Below, piece after piece: positions 20,507 to 31,078 of a DNA stretch of 64,000 nucleotides. Under the pieces are notes generated by a model. It made no database searches, was not told the DNA's origin, and worked only from the letters and a program-made list of their open reading frames with translations. The number at the start of each line of letters is the position of its first letter. The first letter of the stretch is position 1. Source of the DNA: Actinacidiphila yeochonensis CN732 (lineage in GTDB: Bacteria; Actinomycetota; Actinomycetes; Streptomycetales; Streptomycetaceae). The position numbers and the translations under genes were made by a program. Where the stretch lies: NCBI RefSeq assembly GCF_000745345.1, contig NZ_JQNR01000005.1, forward strand, positions 868,001 to 932,000, read 5' to 3'.

Positions 20507-20588
20507 CCCGGCGCCCCGGCGCCGCGGCGACCCGGCGGCCTCGGCAGCACGACGGCCTCGGCCGATCCGCCCGGCGCCCTCGTCGGTC

Positions 20589-20656
20589 CGTCTGCCTCGT
20601 CGGACCGTCTGCCTCGTCGGACCGTCTGCCTCGTCGGACCGTCTGCCTCGTCGGAC
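20589..20656. repeat. 17-bp tandem repeat, four copies
   Basis: Exact units CGTCTGCCTCGTCGGAC at 20589, 20606, 20623 and 20640. It lies in the 431-bp gap after the amidohydrolase gene. The rest of the gap holds the promoter of the next operon (see 20724-20806). Confidence 0.9.
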
Positions 20657-20723
20657 CGGCGACCTCACAGGCCCGTCGCGGACCCGCTCACCGGAGCCGG
20701 TCCGCACCCGCCTGAGCTGCCGC

Positions 20724-20806
20724 GTCAAGGGAACGTCAGGAAGCGGGACGGAGCGTCAAGCGCGTGTCAGCGGCCGGCGGAGGCCGCCGGGGGCCGGGCA
20801 TAGCGT
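20724..20806 (+). promoter_or_regulatory. Four-GTCA direct-repeat promoter (first copy)
   Basis: GTCA at 20724, 20735, 20755 and 20766: two pairs with 11-bp period, 20 bp between the pairs. TAGCGTCC at 20801 fits a -10 element, 35 bp from the last repeat. The next gene starts at 20938, so the leader would be about 130 nt. The same layout occurs at 23284-23365. Geometry resembles sites of OmpR-type response regulators; the regulator is unknown. Confidence 0.55.
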
Positions 20807-20937
20807 CCTTGCCAGGACGCCTCTCGCGACCGCCGTCGCGGCAGCCCGCGTGAAGCGGCCCGGCCCGCACCCTCCACGGGTGCGGCGCCGAAGACCGCCC
20901 GGCCCAACGGCCGGGCCACCCGTGAAGGAGCCGCGCC

Positions 20938-21306
20938 ATGTCCGCACCCCTGGCCGCCGAGGACCCCGAGCCCCTTGAACCCGTCCCGGCCGGAACCGCG
21001 TTGTACGTCCCGGTCCGGCCGGGTCCCACCGGGCCGACCGCCCGCTTCTTCCGCACCGCCCTGGGCGGCCGGACGGCGGTGGCGTTCACCACCGAGGAGC
21101 GGCTGCGCGCCACGCTCGGCCGGCAGCCGTACATCCGGCTGGCCGAGCCGGCGCTGCGGGCACTGGCCGAACCGCTGGGGGTGCTCGAACTGCGCCTCGA
21201 CCCCCGGCTGGCCGCGCCCGCGCCCGCCCAGGTGCCCGACGTGCCGCACCCCGCGCCCGCCGGCCTGGGGCTCGCCGGCCACCCCGCCACGGGAGGTGTC
21301 CGATGA
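20938..21306 (+). CDS. SAV_915-like small protein
   Basis: A 122-residue soluble protein. TALYVPVRPG..., VAFTTEERLRATLGRQPYIRLAEPALRALAEPLGVLELRLDPRL resembles the SAV_915 / SseB-N-like family of Streptomyces, whose function is unknown. ATG has GAAGGAG upstream. Its last codons overlap the LysA-like start (ATGA), so it is coupled to that enzyme. Confidence 0.8.
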   Translation: MSAPLAAEDPEPLEPVPAGTALYVPVRPGPTGPTARFFRTALGGRTAVAFTTEERLRATLGRQPYIRLAEPALRALAEPLGVLELRLDPRLAAPAPAQVPDVPHPAPAGLGLAGHPATGGVR

Positions 21307-22958
21307 CGCGTCCTGCCGTACACCCGCCCCTCCACGGAGCCGTCCGGGAGCCCGCGGGTCCGGCCCTGCGGAGGTCGACCGGTCCGGGCCCGGGTACGGC
21401 GCTCGTCGCCGGCACGGGCACCCCGCGCCCCGCCATCGGGGTGCGGCAACCGCAGCGCGTTCAGGACGACCTTCGGGAGGACGTACTCGTGGACGCCCCG
21501 CAGGACACCCCCCAGGACATCCCGCTGGACCTTCCCCAGGATCTTCCGCGCGACATTCCGCTGGACCTTCCCCAGGACCTTCCGCGCGACATTCCGCTGG
21601 ACCTTCCGCGCGACATTCCGCGCGACCTCACCGAGACCGTGACCGTCCCGAGGGCTCTCGGCGCCGACCCGCTGTCGGTGTGGCCCGCCTCCGCCCGGCC
21701 CGCGCCCGGCGGGGACGTGGCCGTCGGCGGGGTGTCGCTGGCCGAGGCGGCGGACCGCTTCGGCACCCCCCTCTACGTACTCGACGAGGCCGAGGTGCGG
21801 GCCCGCTGCCGCGGCTACCTGGCCGCGTTCCCCGACGCCGACGTCGTCTACGCGGCCAAGGCGTTCCTGTGCCGGGCGGTGGCCCGCTGGGTGCGCGAGG
21901 AGGGCCTGGGCCTGGACGTGTGCTCGGCCGGCGAGCTGGAACTGGCCGTGACCAGCGGCTTCCCCGCCGAACGGATCGTCCTGCACGGCAACGCCAAGAC
22001 CCCGGAGGACCTGCGGGCCGCCGTCCGCCTCGGGGTGGGCCGGATCGTCATCGACAGCCCCGCCGAGATCGCCCGCATCGCCACCCTCGTACGCCCCGGC
22101 GACCGGCAGGCGGTGATGCTGCGGGTGGTGCCCGGCGTGGTCGCCGGCGGCCACCAGTCGGTGCGCACCGGCGGCGAGGGCCAGAAGTTCGGGCTCTCCC
22201 TCACCGACGGCTCCGCGCAGCACGCCGTGGACCGGGTGCTGGGCCAGCCGGGCCTCGAACTGGTCGGCCTGCACTGCCACATCGGCTCCCAGATCGCGAC
22301 CGTGAAGCCGTACCTGGCGGCGGTCCGGCGGCTGGTCGGGCTGCTGGCCCGCATCCGCGACCAGCACGGCGTGGCGCTGCCGCAGCTCGACATCGGCGGC
22401 GGCCACGCGGTCGCCTACCGCCCGGGCGAACCCGCCCTGGACGTCCCCACGTTGGCCGCCCGGGTGCGCGCCGAACTCGCCGACGGGTGCGCCGGCAACG
22501 GCCTCCCGGTACCCCGGCTCACGGTGGAGCCCGGCCGGGCGGTCATCGGGCCCGCCGGGGTGGCGCTCTACCGGGTGCTGTCTATCAAGCACGGCGGCGG
22601 CCGCACCATGGTCGCCGTGGACGGCGGCATGGGCGACAACCCGCGCCCCGCCCTCTACGGAGTGCGGTACGCGCCACTGCTGGTGGGCCGGGCCAGCACC
22701 GCCCGCCCCGTCCCGGTGGACGTCGTGGGCCGCTACTGCGAGGCCGGCGACATCCTCGCCGAGGACGTCGCCCTGCCCGAGGACCTGCGACCCGGCGACC
22801 TGCTGGCCGTACCCGTCGCGGGCGCGTACCACCTCTCGATGGCGGCCGCGTACAACATGGTCGGCCGCCCGCCCGTCGTGGGCGTCGCGGACGGCACCGC
22901 ACGCCTCCTGGTGCGCCGCGAGTCGCTGGCGGACCTGTCCCTGCGCGACGTCGGCTGA
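21303..22958 (+). CDS. LysA-like PLP decarboxylase with repeat-rich N-terminal extension
   Basis: A 551-residue fold-III PLP enzyme. From about 140 it matches diaminopimelate/ornithine decarboxylases: PLP Lys186 in VVYAAKAFLCRAV, LHCHIGSQ, DIGGGHAVAY, TVEPGRAV and CEAGDILAED (active-site Cys). The first ~140 residues are extra; residues about 63-109 are an Asp/Pro repeat of DIPLDLPQDLPR units from 36-bp DNA repeats. LysA normally makes lysine from meso-DAP; the pairing with a SAV_915-like gene, the special promoter and the extension suggest a second, specialised decarboxylase rather than the housekeeping LysA (inference). Confidence 0.88.
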   Translation: MTRPAVHPPLHGAVREPAGPALRRSTGPGPGTALVAGTGTPRPAIGVRQPQRVQDDLREDVLVDAPQDTPQDIPLDLPQDLPRDIPLDLPQDLPRDIPLDLPRDIPRDLTETVTVPRALGADPLSVWPASARPAPGGDVAVGGVSLAEAADRFGTPLYVLDEAEVRARCRGYLAAFPDADVVYAAKAFLCRAVARWVREEGLGLDVCSAGELELAVTSGFPAERIVLHGNAKTPEDLRAAVRLGVGRIVIDSPAEIARIATLVRPGDRQAVMLRVVPGVVAGGHQSVRTGGEGQKFGLSLTDGSAQHAVDRVLGQPGLELVGLHCHIGSQIATVKPYLAAVRRLVGLLARIRDQHGVALPQLDIGGGHAVAYRPGEPALDVPTLAARVRAELADGCAGNGLPVPRLTVEPGRAVIGPAGVALYRVLSIKHGGGRTMVAVDGGMGDNPRPALYGVRYAPLLVGRASTARPVPVDVVGRYCEAGDILAEDVALPEDLRPGDLLAVPVAGAYHLSMAAAYNMVGRPPVVGVADGTARLLVRRESLADLSLRDVG

Positions 22959-23024
22959 CGCACCGCCGGGACCGCCGGACATCGACTGACGCACGGCCGG
23001 AACCGGCCGGCATCGGCTGAGACC

Positions 23025-23058
23025 GTGGCAGCCGACGTCGGCGGACGTCCGCTGCCAC
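23025..23058 (+). terminator. Hairpin after the LysA-like gene
   Basis: GTGGCAGC and GACGT on the left pair with ACGTC and GCTGCCAC on the right, with one-base bulges; 66 bp after the stop. Confidence 0.6.
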
Positions 23059-23100
23059 CGGGCCGGGGCGCCTGCTCATCGCCCCGGCCCACCCCACGCG

Positions 23101-23136
23101 GGCCCGTACCCGGCCGTCCAGGCCCGGGTACGGGCC
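23101..23136. terminator. Second strong hairpin after the LysA-like gene
   Basis: A perfect 13-bp stem GGCCCGTACCCGG (23101-23113) with 23124-23136. It lies before the 22-bp repeat array; no T-tract. Confidence 0.6.
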
Positions 23137-23188
23137 CGCCGCCGTACCGGCTCCTGCCCGCGCCGTACCGCGCGAAGGCGGGCCCCAG

Positions 23189-23276
23189 AGGGTCGGACGG
23201 CGGGCTTCGGAGGGTCGGACGGCGGGTTCCGGAGGGTCGGACGGCGGGTTCCGGAGGGTCCGACGGCGGGCTTCGG
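23189..23276. repeat. 22-bp tandem repeat, four copies
   Basis: Copies at 23189, 23211, 23233 and 23255, each opening AGGGTCGGACGGCGGG (the last has AGGGTCCGAC). They directly precede the GTCA-repeat promoter of the next gene. Confidence 0.88.
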
Positions 23277-23283
23277 CGTCGGT

Positions 23284-23365
23284 GTCAGGGGGGTGTCAGG
23301 AAGGGCTCGGGAGGCGTCAGGGCGGCGTCAAGGGCCCGTTCAGCGAGGCGGCCGGTGCCTAGCGT
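23284..23365 (+). promoter_or_regulatory. Four-GTCA direct-repeat promoter (second copy)
   Basis: GTCA at 23284, 23295, 23316 and 23327: pairs with 11-bp period separated by 21 bp, then TAGCGTC at 23360, 33 bp from the last repeat. The match to 20724-20806 in repeat number, spacing and -10 is close. Here the -10 ends seven bases before the ATG, so the transcript would be almost leaderless. Confidence 0.55.
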
Positions 23366-23372
23366 CGGAGAC

Positions 23373-23930
23373 ATGCAGCGCGGCGACTTCCCCACCACGG
23401 CGTCCCGTCCCCCGGCCGGAGCGGCGGCCCACCCTGTGCCCGCGCGGGACCGCGAATGGCCGCACAGAATGCGTACCGCCTACGCCTCCTCGGTCAGCGT
23501 GCTGGCCCTGGCGCTGGTCTTCGACGGCTGGGACGGCTCCCTCACCTGGTGGCGCGCCCTGCTGTGGACGGCGCTCGCGGCGACGCTCTTCGCGATCCTG
23601 CTGCCGCCGCGCACCACCGCCGGCGAGGGCTGGCTGGCCGTACGCGGCCTGCTGCACACCGAGCGGGTGCGCACCGACCGGCTCGTCTCGGCCCGCCTCA
23701 TGGGCACCGTGGACCGGCGGCTGATCCTGCGGGACGCCTCCGGCGCGCTGGCCTCCGTCGACGTGACGGTGCTGATCGCCAACCCGTTCCTCTGGCACGA
23801 GCTGGACAGCGGCGCCCGCCGCGCGCACGCCGCCGGGCTGCTGCCGGACCGGGGGGCGCTGAACGAGCTGGCCAAGGCCGTGGACGCCGACGAGGCCCGC
23901 CGACTGCTCTCCTCCGCCGGCCTGTCCTGA
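23373..23930 (+). CDS. PH-domain-like membrane protein
   Basis: A 185-residue protein with two TM helices (about 36-50 and 58-74: SVLALALVF, ALLWTALAATLFAILL) followed by a small beta domain (GWLAVRGLLHTERVRTDRLVSARLM, RRLILRDASGALASVDV), as in actinobacterial PH-like (bPH) membrane proteins. Function unknown. ATG at 23373 with GGAG close upstream. It shares a promoter pattern with the SAV_915-like/LysA-like operon. Confidence 0.82.
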   Translation: MQRGDFPTTASRPPAGAAAHPVPARDREWPHRMRTAYASSVSVLALALVFDGWDGSLTWWRALLWTALAATLFAILLPPRTTAGEGWLAVRGLLHTERVRTDRLVSARLMGTVDRRLILRDASGALASVDVTVLIANPFLWHELDSGARRAHAAGLLPDRGALNELAKAVDADEARRLLSSAGLS

Positions 23931-27096: not shown

Positions 27097-30000
27097 TCAC
27101 TCCTCGCCCTCCAGCTCCCCCTCCGTCTCCAGGTAGAGGCGGCGCAGCTCGGCCAGGGCCGCCGGGTCGGGCTCGGCCCACAGGCCGCGCGACTCGGCCT
27201 CCAGCAGCCGCTCGGCGATGCCGTGCAGCGCCCACGGGTTGGCCTCGCGCAGGAAGTCCCGGTTGACCGGGTCCATCAGGTACGTCTCGGTGATCTTGTC
27301 GTACATCCAGTCGGCGATGACGTTGGTGGTGGCGTCGTACCCGAACAGGTAGTCCACGGTGGCGGCCAGCTCGAAGGCGCCCTTGTAGCCGTGGCGGCGC
27401 ATCGCCTCGATCCAGCGGGGGTTGACCACCCGGGCCCGGAAGACCCGCGAGGTCTCCTCCAGCAGGGTGCGGGTGCGGACCGTCTCCGGCCGGGTGGAGT
27501 CGCCGATGTAGGCGGCCGGGGAGCTGCCGGTGAGCGCCCGCACCGCCGCCACCATGCCGCCGTGGTACTGGAAGTAGTCGTCGGAGTCGGCGATGTCGTG
27601 CTCGCGGGTGTCGGTGTTCTTCGCCGCCACCGCGATCCGCCGGTACGCCGTCTCCATCTCCGGCCGGGCCGGCCGCCCGTCCAGCCCGCGCCCGTAGGCG
27701 TAGCCGCCCCACACCGTGTAGACCTCCGCGAGGTCGGCGTCGGTACGCCAGTCGCGGGAGTCGATCAGCTGGAGCAGCCCGGCCCCGTACGTGCCCGGCC
27801 GGGAGCCGAAGATGCGGGTGGTGGCGCGCCGTTCGTCGCCGTGCTCGGCCAGGTCGGCCCGGGTGTGGGCGCGTACGTGGTTGGCCTCGTCGGGCTCGTC
27901 CAGCGACGCGGCCAGCCGTACCGCGTCGTCCAGCAGCGCCACCGCGTGCGGGAAGGCGTCGCGGAAGAAGCCGGAGATGCGCAGCGTCACGTCGACGCGG
28001 GGGCGACCCAGCTCGTCGGCCGGGATCGGCTCCAGGCCGGTGACGCGGCGCGAGGCGTCGTCCCAGACCGGGCGGATACCGAGCAGCGCCAGCGCCTCCG
28101 CGATGTCGTCGCCGGCGGTGCGCATCGCCGAGGTGCCCCACAGCGACAGGCCCACCGAGGCCGGCCAGGTGCCGTTGTCGTCGCGGTAGCGGGCCAGCAG
28201 CGAGTCGGCCAGCGCCTGCCCGGTCTCCCAGGCCAGCCGCGAGGGCACCGCCTTGGGGTCGACGGAGTAGAAGTTGCGGCCGGTGGGCAGCACGTTGACC
28301 AGCCCGCGCAGCGGCGACCCGGACGGCCCGGCCGGGACGAACCCGCCGGACAGCGCGTGCGCCACCCGGTCCAGCTCGTCGGTGGTGGCCGCCAGCCGGG
28401 GCACCACCTCGCGCGCGGCGAACTCCAGCACGGCGGCGACCTTCCGGTCCACGCCGTTCGCGCCGTTCACGCCGTTCACGCCGTCGGCGCCGTCCGTGCC
28501 GTTCACGCCGTCCGGTTCCGCGAGGGGTTCGCCGAGGACGCGCGTGACGGTGTCCGGCACCGCCGCCGGGTCCCAGTCGGCCGCCTCCATCGCCTCCACC
28601 AGGGCTCGGGCCAGGGCCTCGGCCTCGTCGGCGGCGGTCCGGCCGGCGGCCGACTCGTCCAGGCCGAGCGCCTCCCGCAGGCCGGGCAGCGCGTTGGTGC
28701 CGCCCCAGATCTGCCGGGCGCGCAGGATCGCCAGCACCAGGTTGACCCGGTCCCCAGCGGCCGGGGCCTTGCCCAGCACGTGCAGGCCGTCGCGGATCTG
28801 GGCGTCCTTGATCTCGCACAGCCAACCGTCGACGTGCAGCAGGAAGTCGTCGAAGCCCGCGTCGTCGGGGCGGTCGTCCAGGCCGAGGTCGTGGTCGAGC
28901 CGCGCGGCCTGGATCAGCGTCCAGATCTGCGCCCGCACGGCCGGCAGCTTCGCCGGGTCCATCGACGCGATCTGCGCGTGCTCGTCCATCAGCTGTTCCA
29001 GCCGGGCGATGTCGCCGTACGAGTCGGCGCGGGCCATCGGCGGCACCAGGTGGTCCACGAGGGTGGCGTGCGCCCGGCGCTTGGCCTGGGTGCCCTCGCC
29101 CGGGTCGTTGACGAGGAACGGGTAGACCAGCGGCAGCCCGCCCAGCGCCGCGTCGGGCCCGCAGGAGGCCGACAGGCCCGCGTTCTTGCCCGGCAGCCAC
29201 TCCAGGTTGCCGTGCTTGCCCAGGTGCACCATCGCGTCGGCGCCGAAACCGCCCTCCGCGACCGGCGCCGCGATCCAGCGGTAGGCGGCCAGGTAGTGGT
29301 GGGACGGCGGCAGGTCCGGGTCGTGGTAGATCGCGATCGGGTTCTCGCCGAAGCCGCGCGGCGGCTGGATCAGCACCAGCAGGTTCCCGTACCGCAGTGC
29401 CGCGAGCACGATGTCGCCGTCCGGGTCACGGCTGCGGTCCACGAACATCTCACCCGGCGGCGGTCCCCAGTGCCGCTCCACCGCCTCCCGCAGCTCCGCC
29501 GGGAGGGTGGCGTACCAGCGGCGGTAGTCGGCGGCCGGCACCCGCACGGGGTTGCGGGCCAGCTGCTCCTCGGTCAACCAGTCCTGGTCGTGGCCGCCGG
29601 CGTCGATGAGGGCGCGGATCAGCGCGTCGCCGTCGTGTCCGTCGGGGCCGTGGTGTCCGTCGGGGCCGTCGGGGCCGCCGCTCGCGGCCTCGTTCCCGCC
29701 GTCGTTCCCGCCGTCGTCGTTCCCGCCGTCGAGGCCGGGCACCGGCTCGGAGCCGAAGTCGTAGCCGTCCGCCCGCAGTCGGCGCAGCAGCGCCACCGCG
29801 CTCGCGGGGGTGTCCAGGCCGACCGCGTTGCCGATCCGCGAGTGCTTCGTCGGGTACGCCGACAGCACCAGGGCCAACCGCTTCTCCGCGTTCGGCACCT
29901 GCCGCAGCCGGGCGTGCGCCACGGCGGTGCCGGCCACCCGCGCGGCCCGCTCGGGGTCGGGGACGTAGGCGGGCAGGCCGTCCTCGTCGACCTCCTTGAA

Positions 30001-30891
30001 CGAGAACGGGACAGTGATCAGCCGCCCGTCGAACTCCGGCACCGCGATCTGGCTGGCCGCGTCCAGCGGGGACACGCCCTCGTCGCTGGCCAGCCAGTCC
30101 GCCCGCGAGGAGGTCAGGCACAGCGCCTGGAGCACCGGAACGTCCAGGCCGGTGAGGGCGCCCGCGTCCCACGCCTCGTCGTCGCCGCCCGCGCCCGCGT
30201 CCGCCGGACGGGTGCCGCCCGCCGCGAGAACGGTCGTCACGATCGCGCCGGCGGCACCGAGTTCGGCCACCAGCTCCGGCTCCGGGGCGCGCAGCGAGGC
30301 CACGAAGTACGGCATCGCCCGGCCGCCGGCCTCCTCGACGGCCGTGCAGAGTGCCTCCACGAACGCGGTGTTGCCGCTCATGTGGTGGGCCCGGTAGTAC
30401 AGCACGGCGACGGCCGGGGCGTCCGGCGCGGCGGTGGCGTGCGAGCGCTCCAGCGGTCCCCAGGACGGCGCAGGGGCCGGCGGCTCGAAGCCGTGGCCGG
30501 TCAGCAGCACCGTGTCGGACAGGAAGCGGGCGAGCTGTTCGAGGTTGGCCGGGCCGCCGTGCGCGAGGTAGGCGTGCGCCTCGGCGGCGATCCCGACCGG
30601 CACCGTGGAGGCGGCCATCAGCTGGGCGTCCGGGGCCTGTTCACCGGAGAGCACGACGACGGGGCGGCCGTCGGCGCGCAGCACGTCGAGGCCGTCCTGC
30701 CAGGCCCGCACCCCGCCGAGCAGCCGCACCACGACCAGTCCGGCGCCCTCCAGCAGCGCGGGCAGCTCCTGCGCGGACAGCCGCGAGGGGTTGGCGAAGC
30801 GGAAGCCGACCGGGCCGGCGGCGGCGCGGGCGCTGAGCAGGTCGGTGTCGGAGGTGGAGAGCAGCAGGATCGGCTCGTCGGCGTAGGGCAT
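27097..30891 (-). CDS. cobN: Cobaltochelatase subunit CobN
   Basis: A 1264-residue large subunit that inserts cobalt into hydrogenobyrinate a,c-diamide in the aerobic B12 route, using ATPase subunits encoded elsewhere. Family motifs: PVVVLSGEQAPDAQLM, YPTKHSRIGNAVGLDTP, MVHLGKHGNLEWLPGKNAGLS, YPFLVNDPGEGTQAKRRAHA, GRNFYSVDPKAVPSRLAWE and MRRHGYKGAFELAATVDYLFG. Two low-complexity inserts, Gly/Asn/Asp/His-rich (about 410-445) and Val-Asn-Gly-rich (about 820-845), sit between conserved blocks. ATG 30891 is chosen because GAGGAAGG precedes it; the GTG at 30960 lies in the riboswitch. Regulated by B12. Confidence 0.97.
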   Translation of the reverse strand: MPYADEPILLLSTSDTDLLSARAAAGPVGFRFANPSRLSAQELPALLEGAGLVVVRLLGGVRAWQDGLDVLRADGRPVVVLSGEQAPDAQLMAASTVPVGIAAEAHAYLAHGGPANLEQLARFLSDTVLLTGHGFEPPAPAPSWGPLERSHATAAPDAPAVAVLYYRAHHMSGNTAFVEALCTAVEEAGGRAMPYFVASLRAPEPELVAELGAAGAIVTTVLAAGGTRPADAGAGGDDEAWDAGALTGLDVPVLQALCLTSSRADWLASDEGVSPLDAASQIAVPEFDGRLITVPFSFKEVDEDGLPAYVPDPERAARVAGTAVAHARLRQVPNAEKRLALVLSAYPTKHSRIGNAVGLDTPASAVALLRRLRADGYDFGSEPVPGLDGGNDDGGNDGGNEAASGGPDGPDGHHGPDGHDGDALIRALIDAGGHDQDWLTEEQLARNPVRVPAADYRRWYATLPAELREAVERHWGPPPGEMFVDRSRDPDGDIVLAALRYGNLLVLIQPPRGFGENPIAIYHDPDLPPSHHYLAAYRWIAAPVAEGGFGADAMVHLGKHGNLEWLPGKNAGLSASCGPDAALGGLPLVYPFLVNDPGEGTQAKRRAHATLVDHLVPPMARADSYGDIARLEQLMDEHAQIASMDPAKLPAVRAQIWTLIQAARLDHDLGLDDRPDDAGFDDFLLHVDGWLCEIKDAQIRDGLHVLGKAPAAGDRVNLVLAILRARQIWGGTNALPGLREALGLDESAAGRTAADEAEALARALVEAMEAADWDPAAVPDTVTRVLGEPLAEPDGVNGTDGADGVNGVNGANGVDRKVAAVLEFAAREVVPRLAATTDELDRVAHALSGGFVPAGPSGSPLRGLVNVLPTGRNFYSVDPKAVPSRLAWETGQALADSLLARYRDDNGTWPASVGLSLWGTSAMRTAGDDIAEALALLGIRPVWDDASRRVTGLEPIPADELGRPRVDVTLRISGFFRDAFPHAVALLDDAVRLAASLDEPDEANHVRAHTRADLAEHGDERRATTRIFGSRPGTYGAGLLQLIDSRDWRTDADLAEVYTVWGGYAYGRGLDGRPARPEMETAYRRIAVAAKNTDTREHDIADSDDYFQYHGGMVAAVRALTGSSPAAYIGDSTRPETVRTRTLLEETSRVFRARVVNPRWIEAMRRHGYKGAFELAATVDYLFGYDATTNVIADWMYDKITETYLMDPVNRDFLREANPWALHGIAERLLEAESRGLWAEPDPAALAELRRLYLETEGELEGEE

Positions 30892-30933
30892 GCTGCGGCT
30901 GGCCTTCCTCGGGGTGTCCGCGCCCCGGGCGGT

Positions 30934-31078
30934 GTCGGACGGCGGGAGTTCCTGGCTCACCCGGCTTTTCAGGCCGGGCTCACAGTGGCGGGACCGCGCC
31001 GGATTCGCACCGGGCTTCCTCCCCTGTCGCCGTCTGCGGCGGTCGCGGGCCGGTCGGCCCGCGCTGCGAGCATCTTAG
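30934..31078 (-). ncRNA. Cobalamin riboswitch upstream of cobN
   Basis: Read on the minus strand: GGAGGAAGCCCGGTGCGAAT, CCGGCGCGGTCCCGCCACTG (the B12-box region), then TGAGCCCGGCC and AAAGCCGGGTGAGCCAGGAA and the CCCGCCGTCCGAC end. All core elements of the adenosylcobalamin aptamer are present in order. It ends about 40 bases before the cobN ATG, so control is probably of translation or transcription into cobN. High B12 would lower cobaltochelatase. Confidence 0.95.

Follow-up and report, generated by a model that had tools for sequence, protein, structure and literature searches.

Which regulator could place a diaminopimelate decarboxylase and a small membrane protein behind the same kind of promoter? 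The question is raised by a 64,000-nucleotide stretch of the Actinacidiphila yeochonensis CN732 genome (contig NZ_JQNR01000005.1, positions 868,001 to 932,000; hereafter the window). In this stretch, two neighbouring transcription units, one encoding a SAV_915 family protein together with a lysA-type paralogue that we call LysA2, the other encoding a membrane protein with a PH-like domain, are each preceded by an array of four GTCA half-sites. A sequence-only reading of this DNA had suggested an unassigned regulon joining the decarboxylase and the membrane protein, and an OmpR-type response regulator acting on 11-bp direct repeats, with a core that differs from familiar boxes. Both suggestions are supported by our analysis, and the conservation of the array and its presence at kdp promoters allow the regulon to be named: the regulator is most likely KdpE, because the same array is the promoter element of the potassium-pump gene kdpA. 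We put at roughly 0.87 the probability of the reading in which the arrays are KdpE operators that would control the KdpFABC pump, kdpD, the SAV_915-LysA2 operon and the PH-like gene, with lysine made by LysA2 perhaps replacing part of the K+.

Array 1 (window positions 20724-20769, forward strand) has GTCA at 20724, 20735, 20755 and 20766, in steps of 11, 20 and 11, and array 2 (23284-23330, forward strand) has it at 23284, 23295, 23316 and 23327, in steps of 11, 21 and 11, each array being two 11-bp direct-repeat pairs. Both are followed on the same strand by TAGCGTC, the proposed -10 element, at 20801-20807 for the SAV_915-LysA2 operon (35 nt past the start of the last GTCA) and at 23360-23366 for the PH-like gene (33 nt past it), as had been described. 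GTCA is followed by A or G in each of the eight units. The earlier claim that such agreement is unlikely by chance also held. The pattern GTCA-N7-GTCA-N14-19-GTCA-N7-GTCA has two exact matches in the window and none in 100 dinucleotide shuffles of it (mean 0.00, largest count 0). On a graded array score, which was set by hand after the first arrays were known and whose absolute values carry no probability and serve only for comparison with controls, arrays 1 and 2 reach 40.6 and 40.5, the rest of the window stays at or below 24, and in 40 windows simulated with a first-order Markov model the top score is 28.3. In the whole 7.82-Mb genome there are five exact arrays (gap 13-20) and no match to the reversed pattern.

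The arrays are also conserved before orthologous genes. For each search we took the 30 best-matching loci, the window's own included; the SAV_915 search matched 102 of 150 genomes and the PH-like search 47 of 150. The array score exceeded 30 upstream of 28/30 SAV_915 loci and 27/30 PH-like loci, with 0/30 in the reversed-sequence control for either set and a top score of 24.4 among 312 unrelated windows; the scan thus leaves the proposed regulon standing. Within the conserved arrays the spacer between the pairs is variable, whereas the half-sites, the step between the pairs and the distance to TAnnnT are constant: TAnnnT lies 33-35 nt past the last GTCA in 27 of the 28 SAV_915 arrays and 32-34 nt past it in 26 of the 27 PH-like arrays. 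Among 35 genomes of the genus, an exact array occurs in 22 (reversed control in 2). When the rows were sorted by type, 18 of these 22 genomes had the array type under study and four (G007, G012, G020 and G021) had other types only. Across the 150 genomes, 79 match the array search and 9 its reversed control, and not every match is a KdpE site.

A search of the organism's own genome for half-site pairs gave 32 matches against 6 in the control and led to the kdp loci. There, arrays with one altered half-site precede kdpA and kdpD; the encoded KdpA, KdpB and KdpC exceed their NCBIfam cut-offs, and KdpD contains PF02702. A KdpA match is present in all 35 genomes of the genus (in G023 as a fragment only), and upstream of kdpA the array score exceeded 29 in all 30 of the best loci, the own locus included. 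In other genera, represented by 40 genomes chosen by hand, of which 38 have KdpA, it did so in 21 of the 30 loci scored; the reversed-sequence control gave 0/60. The element of the LysA2 operon is therefore the element of the potassium pump.

The two sets of genes are also found side by side. In about 6 kb of locus L135, kdpE2 and kdpD on one strand are followed by array-SAV_915-LysA2 and then by an array and the PH-like gene. Locus L140 has kdpA, B, C and D and, farther on, array-SAV_915-LysA2-kdpB-kdpC-kdpA-array-PH-like gene, with a second kdpB, kdpC and kdpA. In L131 two arrays lie between the divergently transcribed PH-like gene and kdpA, and in L133 kdpA lies about 2.5 kb from SAV_915-LysA2. 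Of the 23 array sites counted by hand in the other genomes of the genus, 12 are no more than 10 kb away from kdpA or kdpD; the count leaves out, of 40 rows, five of the own genome and 12 of other types (four GtrA-type, four AAATGAGCGTCA-type and four with simple tandem or unlike cores). With no type dropped the linkage is 13/35, as a kdpD is at most 10 kb away in one of the omitted rows, G010:C135. Two genomes without kdpA, G042 and G055, keep a full KdpD domain; G055 has an array (score 29) before the PH-like gene, and G042 has one beside a transporter that has no Pfam or NCBIfam match and that we take to be KimA-like. The genome with the KdpA fragment, G023, shows PF02702 matches that are short and partial and is without an exact array; this is a weak point, as 16 genomes of the genus with kdpA lack one of the studied type too.

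The arrays share their 11-bp direct-repeat spacing with KdpE sites that have been studied. In Mycobacterium smegmatis, the KdpE site at the kdpFABC promoter was delimited to 22 bp by footprint and truncation, according to the available part of that paper (PMC5401905). The sequence given there contains GTAAAG and ATCAAG 11 bp apart, each one base off GTCAAG; scored as a half-site pair it reaches 16.3 of 22, a value attained by none of 20,000 shuffles. At least three regulators of the KdpE type, each with KdpE as its top-scoring NCBIfam model, are encoded in the A. yeochonensis genome. Since it also contains three PF02702 (KdpD) genes (L094, L127), K+ signalling may be branched in this organism.

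Thirteen further regions, chosen because they bear arrays, widen the range of associated genes. Arrays precede universal stress protein (usp) genes (L329, L338 and L340 by Pfam, others by resemblance), kdpB operons (L331, L332 and L336) and a LysA2 gene without SAV_915 (L330); the array of L332 has genes for a Kup K+ transporter and a Na+/H+ exchanger in its vicinity.

Several observations weigh against KdpE as the reader of all these arrays. Two of the 30 SAV_915 loci (L160 and L162) fall short of the score, both retaining the downstream pair with a mismatch in one of the two, as do three of the 30 PH-like loci (L191, L193 and L202) and nine of the 30 kdpA loci of other genera, several of which carry a recognisable variant such as CGTATGGAGCCCGTCA. 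Of the genus's 35 genomes, 17 have no exact array of the studied type, and kdpA is present in 16 of these 17; the absence of an exact array from a genome says little. When LysA2 relatives were sought in named genomes (the best 80 of 589), only 6 of the 10 named Streptomyces and Kitasatospora loci had a same-strand upstream array scoring above 29, the other four comprising two with an array on the opposite strand, one with none and one without upstream DNA; kdp genes flank 4 of the 10. The kdpA promoters have a TTnnnT-like hexamer at the -10 place (TAnnnT in 0/51), and the kdpD-B operon of the own genome has no array (best score 19.1). The three KdpE-like regulators score 238-245 bits against a curated KdpE cut-off of 325, and any of these paralogues may be the one that binds. 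Three array-bearing genomes of the genus (G017, G022 and G031) show only a KdpD type of 53-55% identity. Some arrays precede genes with no evident K+ link (for an eCIS_core protein, a YCII/LuxR gene and GtrA), so the bare motif is no sure sign of a KdpE site. The authors of the M. smegmatis study saw no resemblance between their KdpE site and others, and the kdpD promoter there showed no significant kdpE dependence (PMC5401905), and the core of the E. coli site as given in the accessible part of its description, TTTATA/TTTACA in one pair, is unlike the GTCA arrays (PMC3264566). Finally, a 2023 review, in the portion available, cites unpublished data that Streptomyces venezuelae can dispense with KdpDE for growth in the presence of 0.5 M NaCl or KCl (PMC10117811).

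The labels SAV_915 and LysA-like, proposed from the letters alone, are borne out by NCBIfam models above their cut-offs. The SAV_915 family protein (20938-21306, forward strand; 122 aa) scores 66.8 bits with NF042914 against a cut-off of 40. LysA2 occupies 21303-22958 of the forward strand (open frame from 21303, alternative start 21489); the protein from 21489 scores 399.1 bits with TIGR01048, about 100 bits above the cut-off of 297.9, and its top match in the PDB is a diaminopimelate decarboxylase (2o0t, E 4.1e-114). It keeps all six motifs AAKA, HxHIGSQ, EPGR, DNxRxALYG, CExGD and GAY, which we take to be the active-site segments of diaminopimelate decarboxylase; 11 of 13 relatives checked keep all six as well, the others being L214, without HxHIGSQ, and L228, without AAKA but read from one of two aligned pieces. 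On this sequence evidence LysA2 is classed as a diaminopimelate decarboxylase paralogue. It is like LysA (TIGR01048; PDB 2o0t, 1hkv) in family cut-off and signature motifs, and differs in being a paralogue of a better-scoring lysA (C5:2819373, 469.2 bits) and in standing under an array; altogether three lysA-type genes of the genome exceed the TIGR01048 cut-off. The N-terminal stretch of the frame is repetitive and rich in Asp and Pro (21516-21626, a 36-bp unit in 3.1 copies) and precedes the part that matches the diaminopimelate decarboxylase model.

In the mechanism that we propose, a drop in K+ or turgor would cause KdpD to phosphorylate KdpE, its OmpR/PhoB-family partner in the KdpDE two-component system. 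Two KdpE dimers would then bind the two 11-bp pairs on nearly the same face of the helix, the pairs being 20-21 bp, or about two turns, apart. The occupied array would end at the -35 position, and RNA polymerase would be recruited to the promoter, which has a good -10 (TAGCGT) and no obvious -35. Active KdpE would turn on the KdpFABC pump, kdpD and a satellite set made up of SAV_915-LysA2 and the PH-like membrane protein, and LysA2 would raise the lysine pool, the lysine cation partly standing in for K+. We infer KdpE binding, activation rather than repression, and the K+ signal from the DNA; what the analysis itself establishes are the arrays, their conservation, their occurrence at kdp, the linkage of the genes to kdp and the family of the enzyme.

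The role of lysine is a hypothesis drawn from the enzyme family. Bacillus subtilis without added K+ grows when given lysine, ornithine, arginine, citrulline or glutamate, as reported in the available part of that study (PMC5573677); LysA2 is therefore proposed as the supplier of a substitute cation. The same source speaks against lysine in that lysine was not among the amino acids raised in the mutants, which were ornithine, citrulline and arginine. A built-in cation replacement in Streptomycetaceae, in which low K+ would act through KdpE on a dedicated LysA2, with SAV_915 and the PH-like protein as accessories, is thus a tentative proposal that we regard as rather doubtful. Not far from an even chance, although a little short of it, is a different role for LysA2 under the same regulator: KdpE would read the arrays, and LysA2 would serve the balance of diaminopimelate and lysine for the wall, or another decarboxylation, under osmotic stress. 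The presence of three lysA-type genes above the cut-off would suit such a role, and the relatives of LysA2 include ornithine/lysine, D-ornithine/D-lysine and BtrK-type decarboxylases. This reading is disfavoured by the margin over the lysA equivalog cut-off, by the solved diaminopimelate decarboxylases being the best structural matches and by the signature motifs kept in LysA2 and most of its relatives.

Could a different member of the OmpR family that recognises an 11-bp GT-rich repeat, MtrA first of all, read the arrays and happen to control kdp? When the surroundings of regulator genes in the own genome were searched for an exact GTCA-N7-GTCA (29 PF00486 matches, about 1.5 kb on each side), none was found before a regulator gene except one before a gene that we take to be mtrA (L095, 3744-3758, reverse strand); position weight matrix matches near other regulators were weak. 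Streptomyces MtrA sites, in the part of the report available, follow GtnAcC-n5-GTnAcn with half-sites 11 bp apart (PMC13189361), and the arrays resemble them in the GTnAC-type direct repeat and its spacing. However, the MtrA consensus has C after GTnA, whereas the arrays have A or G there and are built of two fixed pairs: A or G follows in 84/84 units (42 pairs) of 21 selected arrays, and among the 486 units of 147 distinct arrays scoring above 33 only six have C, with the reservation that the score itself favours A or G. Moreover, the arrays are linked to kdp, and none of the neighbourhoods examined showed a link to mtrAB, although no search was aimed at it. We consider control by MtrA or a similar regulator improbable, and KdpE remains the preferred reader.

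CutR, the response regulator of a conserved Streptomyces two-component system and the first candidate considered, was rejected. Its published site, as given in the accessible text, is TAWATAAA, unlike the arrays (PMC12802291), and TAWATAAA was not seen on reading 20721-20940 and 23260-23380.

An origin of the arrays by chance or as a by-product of the tandem repeats directly upstream of both (20578-20658, 17 bp in 4.8 copies; 23177-23276, 22 bp in 4.5 copies) is already refuted, because the arrays are conserved, do not overlap those repeats, hold the same position in different genera despite differing spacers and score above the controls.

The label of the second unit stands less firmly than those of the first. 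The PH-like gene (23373-23930, forward strand) would encode two N-terminal helices followed by a six-stranded PH-like domain. For the portion encoded from 23469 onwards, the AlphaFold model has a mean pLDDT (predicted local distance difference test) of 88.6, and its top Foldseek matches are PH domains at an E value of 0.05, with none at 0.001; the modelled fold thus looks PH-like. The window's protein has no Pfam match, bPH_6 included, and bPH_6 matches 7 of the 27 members of the orthologue alignment at E values up to 0.1 (best 0.0014). We place the start of the gene at 23373 because GTCGGAGACATG is kept in three orthologues (L036, L041 and L043). This ATG begins 8 nt beyond the last base of the -10 element, close to the expected transcript start, and the mRNA is probably leaderless.

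Some arrays and look-alikes elsewhere are of other kinds. Arrays of a TGTCA type, conserved before a YCII/LuxR-domain gene in L333 and L334 (the domains were tested in L333), are probably sites of another regulator. A four-part array at L001 1501-1547 precedes the gene of an eCIS_core protein and has TACAGT 34 nt past its last GTCA. In the own genome, L002 1479-1550 holds seven 11-bp units in a row, six with GTCA and one with GTTA, near small proteins that are presumably WXG100-like. In four genomes (L044, L045, L046 and L057) a related multi-unit GTCAGCG/GTCAGTG array stands directly before a membrane gene, which we take to be GtrA-like. The pattern is also matched at L039, L047, L058 and L062 (three genomes) by an unlike element, GTCAAATGAGCGTCA...GCGTCATTTCAGCGTCA or a near version of it, which may be an iteron or mobile-element feature.

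No riboswitch was found by Rfam at the gathering threshold at the arrays or at the kdp loci searched. The sole match at that threshold in the window, L094, L135 and L140 is a cobalamin riboswitch (RF00174), which in the window lies at 30946-31021 on the reverse strand (42.3 bits), at the start of a long reverse-strand open reading frame (27097-30960) whose product presumably resembles CobN.

How much of this is new can be judged from what is on record for KdpE. According to the available part of the 2023 review, KdpDE has been analysed in no Streptomyces model so far (PMC10117811), and in the open-licence PMC literature we found, by title and abstract, neither a Streptomyces KdpE regulon nor a link between KdpE and diaminopimelate decarboxylase. 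A 2026 synteny paper, as far as its accessible text goes, places kdpDE beside another gene cluster (PMC13118837). KdpE operators as such are known, and novelty would lie in the form with four half-sites and in the additional targets. Our results suggest that a lack of potassium turns on an additional enzyme of lysine synthesis and a small membrane protein; this would tie two families whose role is unknown, SAV_915 and the PH-like proteins, and an amino-acid enzyme to potassium shortage. If this is true, Streptomycetaceae would possess a wired-in regulon for what B. subtilis reached by laboratory mutation with other cationic amino acids, and the exchange of K+ for cationic amino acids would become directly testable in antibiotic-making soil bacteria.

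In E. coli, the KdpE site likewise consists of direct repeats before kdpFABC, two of 6 bp with 5 bp between them, as far as the available description shows (PMC3264566). The M. smegmatis site is like the arrays in regulator family, in the kdp target operon and in half-site spacing, and differs from them in comprising one pair at a SigF-type promoter, with kdpFABC as the sole target named in the accessible text (PMC5401905), where the arrays have two pairs. Unlike the single pair of both these species, the candidate operator described here has four half-sites, and its likely targets extend beyond the pump.

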